Below are positions 4,651 to 11,401 of a stretch of 64,000 nt of DNA, piece after piece. The stretch is from Pseudomonadota bacterium (lineage in GTDB: Bacteria > Pseudomonadota > Alphaproteobacteria > Dongiales > Dongiaceae), in NCBI GenBank assembly GCA_021792365.1, contig JAJYUT010000002.1:826313-890312 (forward strand), given 5' to 3'. The translations under genes were made by a program, and so were the position numbers. Below the pieces are notes generated by a model. The model had not been told where the DNA came from. It saw only the letters and a list, made by a program, of their open reading frames with translations, and did not search any database. Within the stretch, counting starts at the first letter, position 1. Each line of letters opens with the position of its first letter.

Positions 4651-4948
4651 AAGGCTCGTCCCCACGACTACACGAGAAGGTTGCCGCTCAACCGCCTTGT
4701 GACGGACGCAAGTCCCACGGGCACACGCTTTTGCGTAGCACTGTCGATTCACGAGATTCAGCCTTGCCTCAACGTGCGGTAGTTAGTACAAACGGAATGC
4801 CTGTCAAAATGCTGCACACCGCGCATGCTTGGGGTCGCGGTGCTGTATTCCAAGCCTTGGGGGCCAACTTCGCTGGCGCATCTCATTTCAGCGGGAAGTT
4901 GGTAATTGCTTGAGTGCCCGAACGGCGCAAAAAGCCGGATCGGTGCGG
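4651..4948. other. Gene-free leader of the LuxR gene
   Basis: About 300 bases between the terminator and the LuxR-type gene. No conserved protein, tRNA or strong repeat was found. Base composition is somewhat less GC-rich than the flanking genes, as expected for a promoter region. The regulator's promoter is presumably here but I could not identify boxes with confidence. Confidence 0.4.
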
Positions 4949-6160
4949 ATGCGTCAGTGCAGCGATGGGTGTCTGATGCCTGACAATAGATCCGCGGACG
5001 TTGCCGGGGAATTGCGGACACAACGCGCGACGGGCGATCCGTTGCGCGATGCGCCGGCGATTGAGTTCGGCTGGGTTCGCGACCTTTATGATGTCGCCGG
5101 CGTGCCGGAGAGTTGGCAACGCTTCCTTGCGCGCGTCTGCGAGCTGCTTGACGCGCCCGTTGCCGCGATCGCCATGCGCCTCGCGGGCAGGGAGGGCAAT
5201 CGCCTCCGTGCGCTCTACGTGGATGACGCGCCCGGGGCCTTCCGAACCGCGGATCAGCGCGGTCAGCGGGCCAACGAGCGCAATGGTCCGCCGTACGTGC
5301 TGCCCGTCATCACCTGCGATCGCCTGGCATCCACGCCGGTCTTCTCCGTCAGCCTCGAACGGCAGGATCCCGACTGCCTGTTCAAGCGGCTCGGCGTGCG
5401 CCACCTGACGGTCGCCCGCGGGATGGAAGCCGGTGACAAGCTCTCGTTCATTGCGGTCGGGCGAACCGCCGGCCAGCCGGCATTCGCCTCATCCGATATC
5501 GGCTTGCTCCAATCCGTCCTGCCCCACTTCCAGCGCGCGATCCAGCTTGCCGACATGCTCGATCAACTCAAGGCGAGCGTCGCGGCTTCGGCGGCGGTGC
5601 TCGACATGATCGCGGTCGGCGTTGTCATCTTCGACGAATACGGCGAGCGCGCGCTGACGAACGAGGCGGCGCGCAGGATATTCGATGGCGATGCCGCGAT
5701 CCTGCGCCATCTCTCCACGGAGGTGATGCGCGACGCCTCGCGCGGCGCGAACGACCACGCCCCGGAAGCGCGCGTCCTCAATCTGTCCGGCCAGGGACAG
5801 CCGCTCCTCGCGGTCATCTGGGATTCCGCTGATGAGTGCCTGTACCAGCGGCACAAGCTGGCGTTCCTCATCGATCCCGCACTGGCGCATAACATCAGCA
5901 TCGACCAGGGCGCGCTGCAACGCCTGTACGGCTTGACGTCTACGGAGGCGCGCGTCGCCGCCTTGCTCGCGAAGGGAGGCAGCGTCGCGGAAATCGCCGA
6001 TCGACTGGGGAATACGGCGTACACGATCCGTACGCATTTGCGGCACATCTTCGAGAAGACCGGCACGGCGCGGCAGGTGGATCTGGTGCATCTCCTGCTG
6101 CGCTCGCTCGTGGCGCTGCAGATACCTGCCATGCAGCGTCACGGCGAGCTGCGCGCATGA
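4949..6160 (+). CDS. LuxR-family transcription regulator with N-terminal sensory region
   Basis: The 403-residue product ends in a LuxR/GerE helix-turn-helix: GLTSTEARVAALLAKGGSV, then IADRLGNTAYTIRTHLRHIF and a final EKTGTARQVDLVHLL. The first 320 residues look like PAS/GAF-type sensing modules, including AVLDMIAVGVVIFDEYGER and LTNEAARRIF. There is no receiver domain, so the input is probably a small ligand or redox cue. The start is uncertain: ATG 4949 and ATG 4976 both have weak ribosome sites. The gene lies upstream of the fibre-like locus at 7078-10959 and is its most likely nearby regulator, which is inference from position only. Confidence 0.8.
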   Translation: MRQCSDGCLMPDNRSADVAGELRTQRATGDPLRDAPAIEFGWVRDLYDVAGVPESWQRFLARVCELLDAPVAAIAMRLAGREGNRLRALYVDDAPGAFRTADQRGQRANERNGPPYVLPVITCDRLASTPVFSVSLERQDPDCLFKRLGVRHLTVARGMEAGDKLSFIAVGRTAGQPAFASSDIGLLQSVLPHFQRAIQLADMLDQLKASVAASAAVLDMIAVGVVIFDEYGERALTNEAARRIFDGDAAILRHLSTEVMRDASRGANDHAPEARVLNLSGQGQPLLAVIWDSADECLYQRHKLAFLIDPALAHNISIDQGALQRLYGLTSTEARVAALLAKGGSVAEIADRLGNTAYTIRTHLRHIFEKTGTARQVDLVHLLLRSLVALQIPAMQRHGELRA

Positions 6161-6171
6161 CCAAGCAGGCG

Positions 6172-6750
6172 CTATTGCGGCGGCTTCCAGGAGTTGACGA
6201 AGGTCGTGGCTTGGTTCCGCAGATTGGGATCGATCTTCGCGCCGATGCGATCGCGCGCGGCGGCGGCATCGGCATCGTCCTGCTTGGCCGCCAGGCTGTA
6301 CCAGAGATAGGCCTGCAGAAGGTCGTTCGGGACGCCCTTACCGGCCTCATAGAGCGCGCCGAGATTGTACTGCGCGTCCGATAGGCCGTGCTTCGCCGCG
6401 ATCGCGTAATTGTGCGCGGCCTGCTCGTAGTTCCGCGGCATGCCCTGTCCCAACTCGTACATCCCGCCGAGATTGTTGATGGCGCCGAGATGTCCCTGGC
6501 TCGCCGCCTTCTCGAACCAGCTGCGGGCGGCGGCGAAGTCAACGGCCACGCCAAGCCCGTTGGCATATATGAGCCCCAGATTGTTCATCGCGCTCGAATT
6601 GCCCTCTTCCGCCAGTGCGAGAAACCCTTTCAAGGCGGTCGCGTAGTCGCCGCCGTGATAGGCGCTGTAGGGATCGTCCGTGCGCGCACCATGCGCATGG
6701 CCGAAGAACACAAGGCAGAAGACAAGCAGAATGGCCATAAGCCGTCGCAT
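6172..6750 (-). CDS. Exported Sel1-repeat (TPR-like) protein
   Basis: A signal peptide (hydrophobic LMAILLVFCLVFFGHAHGA) is followed by four or five Sel1 repeats of about 36 residues, each with the A(M/I)NNLG or AQYNLGALYEAGKGV pattern. Such repeats form helical solenoids that hold protein partners in the periplasm. The 192-residue protein has no catalytic motif. It runs opposite to, and ends next to, the LuxR gene, and diverges from the exported-protein cluster that starts at 7078. A perfect 16-bp palindrome lies 11 bases upstream of its start. Confidence 0.85.
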   Translation of the reverse strand: MRRLMAILLVFCLVFFGHAHGARTDDPYSAYHGGDYATALKGFLALAEEGNSSAMNNLGLIYANGLGVAVDFAAARSWFEKAASQGHLGAINNLGGMYELGQGMPRNYEQAAHNYAIAAKHGLSDAQYNLGALYEAGKGVPNDLLQAYLWYSLAAKQDDADAAAARDRIGAKIDPNLRNQATTFVNSWKPPQ

Positions 6751-7077: not shown

Positions 7078-7458
7078 ATGAAGAAGCTCTTGATTGGCGT
7101 TTCCGCTCTCGCGCTCGGCCTGACGGCTGCGTCCGGCGCGTGGGCCAACCCGAAGAACACGTTCTCAGACGGCAATACCCAGACGGTGAACAGCATCGCG
7201 GTCGCCGGCATCGGCGCCGCGTTCAGCGAATCCTTCAACGTCAACAACGAGGCCGTGTCGGTCCAGACGCTCGTCGGCGTGGCCGTCGGCGCGACGCTGG
7301 ACGTGGACCTGGTTCCGGTGTTCTCCGGCAACGCGACCAACGGGGCCGTCACCAACAACCATGGCATCGCCATGGGCGGTCTGGCGAACTCCGGCAACGC
7401 GGCCGTGCAGCAGCAAGCGGTGTCGCTGTCGGCGGTCGGGTCCGTGAGCATTCAGTAA
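7078..7458 (+). CDS. Small exported Asn/Val/Ala-rich protein, candidate fibre subunit
   Basis: The 126-residue product has a textbook signal peptide (MKKLLIGVSALALGLTAASG, cleavage after AWA). The mature part has no Cys, is rich in Asn, Val, Ala, Ser and Gly, and alternates polar and hydrophobic residues (for example NNEAVSVQTLVGVAVGATLD), as in beta-fibre proteins. It contains NGAVTNNHGIAMGG, which matches GGISNNHGMTNI in the gene at 7702. The start has AGGAG eight bases upstream. It opens a five-gene same-strand run with an exported C39 peptidase and a coiled-coil/barrel porin. I do not recognise a named family. Confidence 0.75.
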   Translation: MKKLLIGVSALALGLTAASGAWANPKNTFSDGNTQTVNSIAVAGIGAAFSESFNVNNEAVSVQTLVGVAVGATLDVDLVPVFSGNATNGAVTNNHGIAMGGLANSGNAAVQQQAVSLSAVGSVSIQ

Positions 7459-7701
7459 CCGTCAACTCCGCCTCAGAAACGTAGCAAAGAACAGGCAGGT
7501 TGAGGGCAAGCGAGGGCCGGCGTCACACCGGGAAAAGACCAGCACTCCATAGAAATAGCGGCAGATGAGACAGGTCGCTGCCGATAGGAAGTTGGTTGTG
7601 CTTCCGCATGATCCGCCGCACATCCCCCAAAGTGCGATGGATCGTGGGGAGCACCGGAAAGTCTGGCGCCGGCCGCTCCTCCCATTTTCAGCGAGGGCGT
7701 T

Positions 7702-8151
7702 ATGATCAGGACCATTCACGATTTCACCCTCCGAACGGCGGTGGCACCGTCGGCCGGCTCGTGCCGGAGCCCCGCATGGCGCGCGGTGCTTCTGGCCGGT
7801 GCTGCGGGCATTGCCTTGGCCATGGCCGCAGGCGCTGATCCGGCGCTGGCTGAGGATAGCCTCGGCGCCCCCATTGCGGTCGAGGACCTCGCGGAGGTCC
7901 GCGGCGGGGCGACCGGCCAGGACGTTCACGTCAACTCTCACAATACGACGAACACCGCCACCTCGACGCCGACGACGACCGCCACCAACCAGGACAACGA
8001 GATCACCGTCGGAGGCGACATGCCTTCGGGGAACTTCATCATCCATGCGGGCGGGATCAGCAACAATCACGGCATGACGAACATCGTCTCGAACACCGCG
8101 CCCCAATCCAACGTCCAGGGCATCATGAGTATGAGCGTGGTCCTGCATTGA
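7702..8151 (+). CDS. Exported protein with double-glycine leader motif, candidate fibre subunit
   Basis: The 149-residue product has a long Arg-containing N-region and a hydrophobic signal core ending at DPALAED near residue 50. It is followed by IAVEDLAEVRGG, a double-glycine motif at residues 68-69 like that cut by C39 peptidases. The 80-residue tail is very rich in Asn and Thr (HNTTNTATSTPTTTATNQDN) and has the NNHG segment shared with the 7078 product. The next gene, 13 bases away, encodes an exported C39 peptidase, so cleavage after Gly69 in the periplasm is the simplest proposal. The AGGG upstream supports the start. The function is inferred. Confidence 0.7.
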   Translation: MIRTIHDFTLRTAVAPSAGSCRSPAWRAVLLAGAAGIALAMAAGADPALAEDSLGAPIAVEDLAEVRGGATGQDVHVNSHNTTNTATSTPTTTATNQDNEITVGGDMPSGNFIIHAGGISNNHGMTNIVSNTAPQSNVQGIMSMSVVLH

Positions 8152-8163
8152 GCGAGCTGTCCG

Positions 8164-8883
8164 GTGAGCAATCGAAGGGCACTATCCTGGGTGGCATGCG
8201 TTGCCGCATGTCTGCTCGTCGCCGGCGGAGCGGCGCACGATGCTGCGGGCGGCGAGCTTTCGGTCTCGAATGGGGTCGAAGGGCGGGCGCGCGTCAGTGT
8301 CACAAGCTGGCGAGACATCCCATTCCGGACGATCGTGCGTCAGCAATACGACTTTTCCTGCGGGTCGGCCTCCGTGGCCACCCTCCTCACCTATCATCTT
8401 GAGCGCCCGACCACGGAGAAGGACGCCTTCGTCGCCATGTACGAGATCGGCGACAAGGAGAAGATCCAGCGCGAGGGATTCTCGCTCTACGAGATGAAGC
8501 TCTATCTGGAATCGCTCGGGTACCGGGCGGACGGCTTCCGCGTTTCCCTCGACCGGCTGCAGGAGATCGGCATCCCCGCGATCGTTCTCATCACCTGGAA
8601 GAACTACAAGCACTTCGTGGTGGTCAAGGGCGTGCGCGACAACCACGTCCTGATCGGCGATCCGGCCCGCGGCCTGAAGGTCATGCCCCGGGATGAGTTC
8701 ATGACCGCTTGGGCCGACGGCATCGTGTTCGCCGTTCACAACGTGGATTTCATCGCCAAGCGGCACTTCAACGACGAAGGCGAGTGGAAGGGCCGGCCGC
8801 GCGCGCCGCTCGCCAGCGGGGTCGGCCGCTCGGGCATCGGAACCATCAACATCCTTCTGCCGGGTGCGGCAGAGCTATTCTGA
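8164..8883 (+). CDS. Exported C39-family cysteine peptidase, FapD-like
   Basis: The 239-residue protein has a signal peptide (hydrophobic core from residue 8 to about 24) and one C39 peptidase domain. The oxyanion Gln and catalytic Cys are in RQQYDFSCGSAS (Cys66), the His in NYKHFVVVKG (His150) and the Asp in VLIGDPARG (Asp166). C39 peptidases cut after double-glycine leaders; here the domain stands alone and is exported, not fused to an ABC transporter, as in the FapD peptidase of the Pseudomonas functional amyloid operon. Flanking genes on both sides carry double-glycine motifs. The start is GTG at 8164, needed to give a complete signal peptide. Confidence 0.87.
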   Translation: MSNRRALSWVACVAACLLVAGGAAHDAAGGELSVSNGVEGRARVSVTSWRDIPFRTIVRQQYDFSCGSASVATLLTYHLERPTTEKDAFVAMYEIGDKEKIQREGFSLYEMKLYLESLGYRADGFRVSLDRLQEIGIPAIVLITWKNYKHFVVVKGVRDNHVLIGDPARGLKVMPRDEFMTAWADGIVFAVHNVDFIAKRHFNDEGEWKGRPRAPLASGVGRSGIGTINILLPGAAELF

Positions 8884-8896
8884 TCGGAGGAGCGCC

Positions 8897-9550
8897 ATGA
8901 CGCTCGCACAGTCATTTCGCCAGTCTTCTAGCCCCCTTGCCGGCACCGCCCGCCGCATCTGCGCCGGACTCGGCCGCACGGCCCTTGCCGGGTTGCTGCT
9001 CGGCGCGTCCGCCCTGCCCGCGGCAGCGGGCATGGCGCAGAGCACCGGTGGCTTCACCGGCCTTGCCACCCTCACCGAGGACGAGCTGCGCGCGATGCGC
9101 GGGGGATTCATGGTCAGCGGCATCGACATCAATTTCGGCGCGGTCGTTCGTGTCCTGGTCAACAACATGCTGGTGGCGGAAACCCATTTGACGCTGAACA
9201 GCAATGGAACGATGGCGGCGCCGTCGACGACGATCCACAATGCCGCGCTGGCCTCCGAGTTCACGGATCCGTCCCAGCTCGCCGGGAGCGGGATCCAGGT
9301 CAGCGGCCCGCCCGGCGCCAACGGATTCGTCATCAGGGACGCCAACGGGGTCTCCCTCGCGCTCAACCACATCACCGCCGGCCAGGTCTTCGGCTTGCTG
9401 GCCAACAACGCGACCGGCCGCAACGTCACGCAGACGATCGACGCGACGCTGACCATCAATAATTTTTCGCAGATCAATGCCGGTCTGTTGAGCACCATCG
9501 CTGCGGGGCGCGCGATGCGTGCCGGTGCCCCCGATCTCATGCTGCAATAG
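8897..9550 (+). CDS. Exported protein with bacteriocin-like double-glycine motif, candidate fibre subunit
   Basis: The 217-residue product starts at an ATG six bases after GGAGG. A hydrophobic signal segment ends near ALPAAAG (residue 45). LTEDELRAMRGG, with Gly69-Gly70, fits the classical double-glycine leader pattern very well. The mature 147 residues have no Cys and are rich in Asn, Thr, Ala and Gly, with beta-alternating text such as TQTIDATLTINNFSQIN. It lies 13 bases after the C39 peptidase gene and before the porin-like gene. The pattern suggests a peptidase substrate that is exported further. No named family is recognised. Confidence 0.72.
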   Translation: MTLAQSFRQSSSPLAGTARRICAGLGRTALAGLLLGASALPAAAGMAQSTGGFTGLATLTEDELRAMRGGFMVSGIDINFGAVVRVLVNNMLVAETHLTLNSNGTMAAPSTTIHNAALASEFTDPSQLAGSGIQVSGPPGANGFVIRDANGVSLALNHITAGQVFGLLANNATGRNVTQTIDATLTINNFSQINAGLLSTIAAGRAMRAGAPDLMLQ

Positions 9551-9687
9551 GAACGAGGGTCGATCTCACGACAGGGGTTCTTCGCCAGTCATCGCACGAG
9601 AGCACTGCGCATGCCCTTTCCGGGTGCGACCATGCAGGAGGAAAGCCGCGCGACGGATGTGGGCTTGTTGTCTCGGATGGGGATATC

Positions 9688-10959
9688 ATGAACAGACGGA
9701 CCTGTTATGTCGCGCTGCTGGCTGCAGCCCAAGCGGCGGCGCCGGGGACGGCTATCGCAGAAAGTGCGGAAGAGCTCGAGCGGCGGGTGCGGCAGCTTGA
9801 GGATGCCGTCCAGCAGCAGCAACAGATCATCCTTGAGCAGCAGCTGATATTGGACCGGCAGCAGGAGAAGCTCAGCACCATCGACGCGCGGCAACTGGAG
9901 ATGACGCGCGGCGCGGGGGTGAGGCAAGCACAGCCCTCGACCCAACCCGCGCCTCAATCAGCTCCGGGAACTCCGGCCGCCACCCCGCCGGACCAGCCGG
10001 TCGGCGAAGCGCCGGAGGAGGAGCGGCCTGAGATCACCGTCATCTCGGATTATGGCGGCGTCCTGACGCCGACCGGGACTCTGGTCGTCGAGCCGTCGCT
10101 GGACTACTCGCATTCCAACGTCAACCGCCTCACCTTCCGCGGCATTGAGCTGCAGGAGACCGTGCTCATCGGCATCATCGAGGCATCGGACGCCGACCGG
10201 GACTATTTTTCGCCCGCGCTGACGTTACGCTACGGCGTGTTCGACGGCTTCGAGGTCGAGGCCAAGGTCCCGTACGTGTTCCGCGACGACCGGATCAGCT
10301 TCCTCGTTCCCCAGGCTTCGGCGCCGGACATCGAGCGCACCGACTCGCTCGACGGCAACGGGTTGGGCGACATCGAAATCGCCGCCCACTACCAGATCAC
10401 CAACAGCGCGCCGTACCTGGTGGGCAACCTGCGGTTCAAGACCCGCACCGGCGACGGGCCGTTCGACGTGAAGCGCGACAGTTTCGGTATCGAGGAGGAG
10501 CTGCCGACCGGCTCCGGGTTCTATGCGCTGGAGCCGAGCCTGACGGTCCTGTTCCCGACCGATCCGGTCGTGCTGTTCGGCAGCGTCAGCTATCAGGTGA
10601 ACTTCCCGGACGACGTCAACGAGCAGATCGGTGACGTCACGGTCCGCGATGTCGATCCGGGCGACGCGATCGGCGTGGCGTTCGGGATGGGCTTTTCGGT
10701 GAACGACAATTTCTCGTTCAGCCTCGGCTACAAGCACCATTTCATCTTCGGCACCGAGACCGAGATCATCGAGCCGCCGCCGGGCGATACGCGGAAGGAG
10801 AAGTCGAACTCACTGCATGTCGGCTCCGCCCTGTTCGGGATGGGCTATCGCGTGTCGGAAGACGTGGGTGTGAACCTGGATCTCGAGCTCGGCGCGACCG
10901 AGGACGCGCCTGACATGCGGGTGCTGCTCCGCGTGCCGATCGCGGTCAGCCTGTTCTAG
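9688..10959 (+). CDS. Outer-membrane beta-barrel with N-terminal coiled coil, FapF-like
   Basis: The 423-residue product has a signal peptide (residues 1-25), a Gln/Glu-rich heptad region likely to form a trimeric coiled coil (26-72), a Pro/Gln linker (73-112) and a C-terminal region of amphipathic strands ending in aromatic/hydrophobic VAVSLF (113-423), typical of an outer-membrane barrel. The barrel text resembles the MetA-pathway phenol transporter family (for example ALTLRYGVFDGFEVEAKVPY). The FapF amyloid exporter of Pseudomonas has the same coiled coil-linker-barrel plan. As last gene of the run it is the natural exporter for the small proteins. Confidence 0.8.
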   Translation: MNRRTCYVALLAAAQAAAPGTAIAESAEELERRVRQLEDAVQQQQQIILEQQLILDRQQEKLSTIDARQLEMTRGAGVRQAQPSTQPAPQSAPGTPAATPPDQPVGEAPEEERPEITVISDYGGVLTPTGTLVVEPSLDYSHSNVNRLTFRGIELQETVLIGIIEASDADRDYFSPALTLRYGVFDGFEVEAKVPYVFRDDRISFLVPQASAPDIERTDSLDGNGLGDIEIAAHYQITNSAPYLVGNLRFKTRTGDGPFDVKRDSFGIEEELPTGSGFYALEPSLTVLFPTDPVVLFGSVSYQVNFPDDVNEQIGDVTVRDVDPGDAIGVAFGMGFSVNDNFSFSLGYKHHFIFGTETEIIEPPPGDTRKEKSNSLHVGSALFGMGYRVSEDVGVNLDLELGATEDAPDMRVLLRVPIAVSLF

Positions 10960-11062: not shown

Positions 11063-11401
11063 TCAGGGTTGTACGATGATGTCGTTCCGAACGCCGCGCA
11101 CGCCTTCGACACTCCAGGCGATCTGCTCCGCTTTTGTCCGATCGGCCTCGCTCGGCACGAAACCGCTTAGCTGCACGATGTCCTTCAGGGTCTCTACCTT
11201 CACCTGGCTGGCCAGGGCAGTGCCACCTTCGGTAGCGAGCTTGGTCTTCACCTTCGTGGAGATCGCCGTCGAATCGACATACTCGCCGGTCGTCTCCTGG
11301 TCCGAGAATATGGTGCAGCCGGCCACTGGAACGCTGAGCATGACCAGCGGCAGCAGAAACCGGAACTTGTCGGTAACGTTACGCAAGGTAATTCTCCACA
11401 C
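11063..11401 (-). CDS. BON-domain lipoprotein
   Basis: The 112-residue protein has a signal sequence ending in the lipobox VAGC (Cys29), so it is probably anchored to a membrane as a lipoprotein. The rest is one BON domain, with the pattern STKVKTKLATEGG, VKVETLKDIVQLSGFV and a final VRNDIIVQP. BON domains bind phospholipid or hold envelope proteins, as in OsmY. It faces the porin-like gene tail to tail. It is monocistronic as far as can be seen. Confidence 0.85.
   Translation of the reverse strand: MWRITLRNVTDKFRFLLPLVMLSVPVAGCTIFSDQETTGEYVDSTAISTKVKTKLATEGGTALASQVKVETLKDIVQLSGFVPSEADRTKAEQIAWSVEGVRGVRNDIIVQP

Follow-up and report, generated by a model that had tools for sequence, protein, structure and literature searches.

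A probable Fap-type fibre secretion locus with a stand-alone C39 peptidase of a third clade and double-glycine leaders behind Sec signals

Background

In the Fap system of Pseudomonas (FapABCDEF) the peptidase FapD acts in the periplasm and FapF is the pore, secretion of FapC depends on the active-site Cys of FapD, and FapE was shown by mass spectrometry to be N-terminally processed, with the substrate of FapD unproven; in 2017 the Fap proteins were said to be without canonical C39 sites (PMC5557850). In December 2025 the targets of FapD were still "thought to be" FapE and FapF (PMC12822426). The FapD and FapF profiles also match two larger families (Dueholm et al., PMC3792158) and, according to a review, homologues of fapD and fapF are found together in five more phyla (PMC6173800); in the accessible parts of these two papers no description of the subunits of such loci was found. 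Here a block of five genes is described from a stretch of 64,000 nucleotides (the window; contig JAJYUT010000002.1, positions 826,313 to 890,312) of a bacterium of the Dongiaceae, Alphaproteobacteria. The block is probably a Fap-type fibre secretion system belonging to a third clade of C39 peptidases, in which leaders would be removed by a periplasmic C39 peptidase.

Results

Five genes in the order of a Fap operon

The block consists of five open reading frames (ORFs) on the + strand at 7078–10959 of the window, P1 to P5, with the following features:

P1: 7078–7458, + strand, 126 aa; short Sec-exported member of an Asn/Gly-rich fibre-subunit family
P2: 7702–8151, + strand, 149 aa; small Sec-exported protein with a double-glycine leader
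P2 double-glycine leader IAVEDLAEVRGG: 7873–7908, + strand; residues 58–69, behind the signal peptide
P3: 8164–8883, + strand, 239 aa, GTG start; single-domain C39 peptidase with an N-terminal signal
P4: 8897–9550, + strand, 217 aa; FapE counterpart with Sec signal, double-glycine leader, predicted beta-rich domain and C-terminal helix
P4 double-glycine leader LTEDELRAMRGG: 9071–9106, + strand; residues 59–70, cut expected near G69-G70-F71
P5: 9688–10959, + strand, 423 aa; FapF-type outer-membrane barrel with N-terminal coiled coil and disordered linker
P5 weak leader-like site IDARQLEMTRGA: 9880–9915, + strand; residues 65–76 at the coiled-coil/linker junction, possible third cut

The original prediction, made from the letters of the DNA, had proposed five same-strand genes with signal peptides, and all five ORFs are present with apparent Sec signals (N-termini judged by eye) after small corrections of start codons; for P4 a ggagga ribosome-binding sequence precedes the ATG at 8897, which is preferred as start over the GTG at 8864. 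P2–P3 and P3–P4 are separated by 12–13 bases, P1–P2 by 243 bases and P4–P5 by 137 bases, and the G+C content of the locus matches the window as a whole, so that base composition gives no hint of recent import. The description of the small proteins as free of Cys holds for the mature proteins only, P2 and P4 each having one Cys in the signal region.

For comparison, 84,980 species were scanned, giving 524 coding relatives of P3, of which 80/524 loci were examined; the window, the taxonomic family to which it belongs and a sample of 398 Pseudomonadota genomes supplied 25 more (105 loci in total). P3 is a single C39 domain without an ABC part (Pfam C39, 7.7e-25) and resembles solved double-glycine proteases such as 6MPZ (1e-9). 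The triad Cys66-His150-Asp166, as originally described, is invariant in 108/108 relatives, as is Gln60. Among the NCBIfam models P3 matches FapD (NF058616; E 1e-39, 136 bits, equivalog cut-off 330) and FilB (4e-33, 115 bits, equivalog cut-off 475). A tree of 108 C39 domains revealed three supported groups, FilB (100/98), FapD (11 rows, 100/97) and the group of the window (91 rows, 99/99); P3, which is also below the FapD equivalog cut-off, falls outside the FapD clade, and the tree places its clade as a third C39 group beside FapD and FilB.

P5 matches the NCBIfam model of FapF (NF058560) over residues 7–417 (411 residues; E 1.4e-39, 136 bits, cut-off 700), the FapF crystal structures 5O65/5O67/5O68 at E about 1e-25 and FilC at 8e-26 (below the equivalog cut-off); from these matches it is identified as a full-length homologue of FapF, a protein made up of a coiled coil and a 12-strand-type barrel. 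An N-terminal coiled coil followed by a Pro/Gln-rich linker is seen in its sequence as had been described, and the proposed likeness of peptidase and barrel to FapD and FapF was borne out, the profiles placing both in related families.

Searches of Pfam and NCBIfam gave nothing convincing for P1, P2 or P4, and in NCBIfam the FapE model itself did not match P4. When the profiles of P4 and FapE were aligned with hhalign, a probability of 95.8% (E 7e-9) was obtained, spanning the leader and the first ~30 mature residues, and a blind search with the P4 profile in the 398 Pseudomonadota genomes gave 28 matches in 23 genomes, every one of them (28/28) beside a stand-alone C39 gene. Nine of the 28 sit at the FapE position of Fap operons, with FapE beside FapD found at 2e-5 to 2e-8. 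Of 61 relatives surveyed, five have P4-like genes, and these are precisely the ones carrying a stand-alone C39 of this kind. No orphan P4-like genes were found elsewhere in the host genome. Profile comparison thus identifies P4 as a homologue of FapE, and the earlier statement that the gene order differs from that of fap had to be given up: with P4 as FapE the order is subunit-subunit-D-E-F on one strand. The same order is found in L129, a Pseudomonas-type reference locus in which the curated models detect FapE with 345 bits and FapC, FapB and FapA all above cut-off. In the predicted model of P4 the mature part has a pLDDT mostly of 70–94; fold searches with this model were uninformative, with no Foldseek match at E ≤0.001 and a best VIA Z of 4.6.

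Several variants of P4 and its setting were seen in other loci. In six gammaproteobacterial loci (L014:6717-7928, L017:6701-7852, L019, L028, L030 and L039) the P4 homologues are 383–430 aa long with the GG site at residues 250–300, and in L014, the one examined at its N-terminus, a membrane-spanning segment and a coiled-coil-like stretch replace the plain signal peptide. In these long homologues a cut would detach the domain from the inner membrane, consistent with a function in release. Locus L131 (1-16000) of genome G140 contains two Fap-type C39-FapE pairs in tandem, and elsewhere the same genome holds a C39 of the scoring class of the window. In L139 (6900-11400) there are two tandem copies of the set P2-C39-P4, whose C39 rows are identical.

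Double-glycine leaders behind the Sec signals

The most informative feature of the locus, missed by the original prediction, is the double-glycine leader of P2 and P4. The leaders begin ~8–15 residues past the end of the apparent Sec signal (AlaLeuAla-50 in P2), at residue 58–59 and not at the extreme N-terminus, and they fit the classical C39 leader with L/I at -12, E/D at -8, L at -7, M/V at -4 and GG at -2/-1. The form LSxxELxxIxGG is found in P4 (LTEDELRAMRGG), in P2 (IAVEDLAEVRGG) and in the close relative L094 (LSNDELRRLRGG). The leader columns are the most conserved part of P4, R68 and G70 being the sole invariant columns both in a set of 25 homologues (14% mean identity) and in one of 64 (15%). 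AlphaFold predicts a helix at residues 61–68 of P4, ending at the GG, and one at 60–66 of P2, the latter in a low-confidence model too poor for a fold search.

A position-specific scoring matrix (PSSM) was derived from 82 distinct P4 leaders alone and applied to 2186 further ORFs that have a hydrophobic segment. With a threshold of 10 bits, it recognised 11/11 held-out FapE-type proteins and 40/102 ORFs directly 5' of a C39 gene, compared with 9/1870 other ORFs (for the 5' ORFs against the others, Fisher p about 1e-46, which is a ranking and not a true probability as related loci are not independent). The P2 leader of the window scores 12.0 bits. With a permissive score designed for P2, at a threshold of 9.0, 74/84 P2-family proteins were found, against 0.8/84 in shuffles and 3% of other ORFs.

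The residue preceding the last leader residue is always G or A, and the last residue itself differs between families. It is G in 78/82 leaders of P4 type, R or K in FapE (RG[RK]), which otherwise follows the same leader template as P4, Q in FilA-like (DUF6160) proteins 5' of FilB (GQ), and in P2-type leaders (n=84) R in 43, G in 31, K in 5, M in 4 and A in 1. The idea that each C39 clade has its own fixed -1 residue was considered and rejected, the P2 proteins of the window clade having R more often than G. The FapC sequences examined are without a leader.

The linker of P5 contains the site DARQLEMTRGA, which on the P4-leader PSSM reaches only 4.1 bits in the window and 6.3 in L094; 10 bits are reached by 7/97 FapF-like ORFs, compared with 9/1870 other ORFs. 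It is a possible third cut site, weak here and with similar sites scoring well in some relatives, and agrees with an earlier proposal that FapF, too, is cut by FapD (PMC5557850).

In three loci (L138:5570-6247, L145:5697-6140 and L147:7195-7632) a DUF6160/FilA protein encoded directly 5' of a FilB-type C39 carries the leader-like sequence (M)DDxxLSxVTGQ|xGISI, and DUF6160 may be a family of proteins cut by periplasmic C39 peptidases. FapA-type proteins of Fap operons (L128:8562-8999, L129:3999-4448, L130:8166-8642 and L134:2881-3513) have a comparable pattern, LSDxD[FYI]xx[VMI]x[SG]G; in published mass spectrometry FapA was reportedly found without processing. No description of a system with post-Sec double-glycine leaders was found in the open-licence literature.

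The putative subunits P1 and P2

Of the 92 loci outside the FapD and FilB types, 70 encode an exported Asn/Gly/Ser-rich protein (up to 958 aa), typically ~500 bases upstream of the C39 gene. A profile of 74 N-termini of these fibre proteins, with the window and L094 left out, matches P1 at E 5e-11, so P1 is a short member of the fibre-subunit family. In 84 loci the gene immediately 5' of the C39 gene belongs to the P2 family, whose members appear to end in one Fap-like repeat.

The claim that FapB- or FapC-like repeats are missing here stands for the curated models, as those of FapA, FapB and FapC in NCBIfam do not match P1 or P2, and the two or more repeats GNxGNxxAGxxNQQxN of FapB and FapC are not seen in either protein; it does not stand for the P1 and P2 families, in which one degenerate module was found. 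A profile of the fibre-protein C-termini matches 35 P2-family proteins at ≤1e-3 (best about 1e-8) as well as FapB-like repeat proteins in L133 (1.3e-4) and L096 (9e-6), the P1 and P2 of the window themselves being below its reach. The C-terminal module of P1 (NNHGIAMGGLANSGNAAVQQQAVSL) aligns to the P2-family module with hhalign at E 0.004, and a direct hhalign comparison of the P2 C-terminus with Fap repeats is weak (E 0.002; 2/200 column shuffles scored as high), the stronger link being the one made by the profile of fibre-protein C-termini. L096 and L097, from the same taxonomic family as the window, encode Fap-type repeat proteins beside C39, GG-leader protein and barrel, and the repeat protein of L096 matches the FapB/FapC models at 1e-7. 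Together this is moderate evidence for a single degenerate Fap-like module in the two families and no proof for the P1 and P2 of the window.

Distribution of the block

A FapF-type barrel accompanies the C39 gene in 96/105 loci, several of the remainder being cut off by the end of a contig, and 91/105 have a P4 homologue, so the block is not a chance arrangement. The system had been called alphaproteobacterial, which is too narrow: its C39 clade also occurs in records of Gammaproteobacteria, Betaproteobacteria, Thermodesulfobacteriota, Nitrospirota, Myxococcota and Ignavibacteriota, and the loci place the block in at least five phyla. C39 proteins of the scoring class of the window were found in ~16/398 Pseudomonadota genomes, compared with ~20/398 for the FapD class, and genomes G088 and G140 carry both types. 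Wherever it is present the block is conserved as a unit, and it is absent from three congeners.

Neighbouring genes

Two genes upstream of the block had been noted originally and were found in place:

LuxR-type regulator: 4829–6160, + strand; GerE helix-turn-helix at the C-terminus (Pfam GerE 2e-9)
Sel1 gene: 6172–6750, - strand; upstream of the block

Both also adjoin the block in one close relative, L094, where the LuxR homologue has the same place (E 4e-61), and the LuxR-type protein may regulate the locus. On the - strand at 11063–11401, immediately 3' of the barrel gene, there is a small lipoprotein-like ORF which by eye has a BON/OsmY-type look.

Discussion

Proposed function of the locus

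By analogy with Fap, all five proteins would cross the inner membrane by Sec. The soluble P3 would then recognise, in the periplasm, the helical double-glycine leader of P2 and P4 and remove it next to the GG, and mature P1 and P2, as fibre or minor subunits, would pass through P5, a trimeric barrel of FapF type, to assemble outside the cell on its surface. P4 would also exit via P5 and could act as initiator, anchor or plug of the exporter. Sec export and passage through the barrel draw on what is known of Fap, and leader removal is the new proposal. Leader removal may be a licensing step, with subunits or exporter inactive until it has taken place.

A number of points weigh against this proposal. 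Cleavage of the leaders is inferred from sequence, and confidence in the predicted structures is moderate or low. The variable residue after the invariant G/A is unusual for classical C39 cleavage, and therefore either the P1 position of the cleavage site tolerates many residues or the bond is cut one residue earlier; judged from the motif, the scissile bond may lie there, or the motif may serve binding. P1, at 126 aa, is far shorter than most fibre proteins (180–958 aa in most relatives), which makes fibres in the host species uncertain, and the congeners lacking the locus have already been mentioned. The host genome also encodes three ABC-fused C39 proteins of 730–948 aa. As a class, ABC-fused C39 domains act on the cytoplasmic side and are therefore unlikely to meet Sec-exported leaders.

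It is unlikely that the locus is simply a Fap operon that has diverged, with the same machinery, a rapidly evolving set of subunits and nothing mechanistically distinct. The conserved order C-D-E-F with homologous D, E and F, the degenerate repeat in the subunit families and a FapE built on the same leader template would all agree with it, but the C39 is in a separate supported clade (99/99) with the NCBIfam equivalog cut-offs unreached, no FapB, FapC or FapA model matches P1 or P2, the fibre subunits come from an unmodelled family, P2 is leader-bearing along with P4 where the FapC sequences are not, and G088 and G140 keep both types side by side.

Less probable still is that the leader is a docking motif, P3 being a chaperone that binds P2 and P4 without cutting, in the manner of the C39-like domains of RTX transporters. 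Such non-cleaving domains exist (PMC5557850) and the variable -1 position (G/R/K/Q) speaks against strict GG cleavage, but Cys, His, Asp and Gln are invariant in 108/108 relatives, and in Fap the Cys of FapD is required for secretion of FapC and FapE is N-terminally processed (PMC5557850).

A decaying remnant in the host species, with P1 as a truncated fibre gene, is rather improbable; the short P1 and the lack of the locus in congeners would suit it, but all five frames are open in both the window and L094, and L094 has the same short P1 and all the leaders. That P2 and P4 are bacteriocin-like double-glycine peptides exported by the barrel, as the classical consensus L-S-x-x-E-L-x-x-M-x-G-G could suggest, is very improbable given the Sec signals in front, the homology to FapE, the Fap-like repeats, the large Asn/Gly-rich partner in 70/92 of the loci outside the FapD and FilB types, and no ABC exporter gene seen adjoining.

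Secretion of a Fap-type fibre with leader removal by a periplasmic C39 thus remains the preferred interpretation. The window system keeps a canonical leader in its FapE counterpart and in its second subunit, and the leader of FapE has one residue changed; the leaders of P2, P4 and FapE therefore provide exact candidate cut sites for the open question of the FapD substrate. As a sequence tag, the leader can help to pick out fibre subunits in genomes, and loci of the window type would represent a widespread surface-fibre system. On balance it is also slightly favoured that Fap, Fil and the window system share one pathway, consisting of Sec export, removal of a second leader by a soluble periplasmic C39 and passage through a FapF-type pore, with the generalised leader L-x-x-x-[ED]-[LM]-x-x-h-[RT]-[GA]-[G/R/K/Q]. 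If this is true, Sec signal plus GG leader would be a recognisable signal class marking the substrates of many uncharacterised exporters, DUF6160 included.

Comparison with known systems

With Fap the locus shares a periplasmic C39 (FapD), a FapE homologue 3' of it, Sec export, a FapF trimeric-type barrel with coiled coil, subunit genes 5' of the C39 gene and the leader template, which in FapE ends in RG[RK]. It differs in its own C39 clade, in the leaders of P4 and of the P2 of the window that end in GG, in the leader borne also by P2, and in subunits of another Asn/Gly-rich family with a single degenerate Fap-like module and no FapA. The Fil "putative pilus" (FilA, FilB, FilC) likewise has a C39 adjoining a FapF-type barrel and, 5' of FilB, a gene (FilA/DUF6160) with the leader-like LSxVTGQ, but FilB forms a well-separated C39 clade and the subunits are unrelated to those of the window; no P4-like gene was found in the three FilB-type loci examined and DUF6160 has no match among the window proteins. 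The C39-fused ABC exporters (PCAT/AMS, e.g. 4RY2 and 6MPZ) have the C39 fold and triad in common with P3, and their leaders the hydrophobic residues at -12, -7 and -4, E at -8 and small residues at -2/-1. In these exporters, however, cleavage is cytoplasmic and takes place on the ABC transporter, whereas in the window both peptidase and leader are found behind Sec signals.

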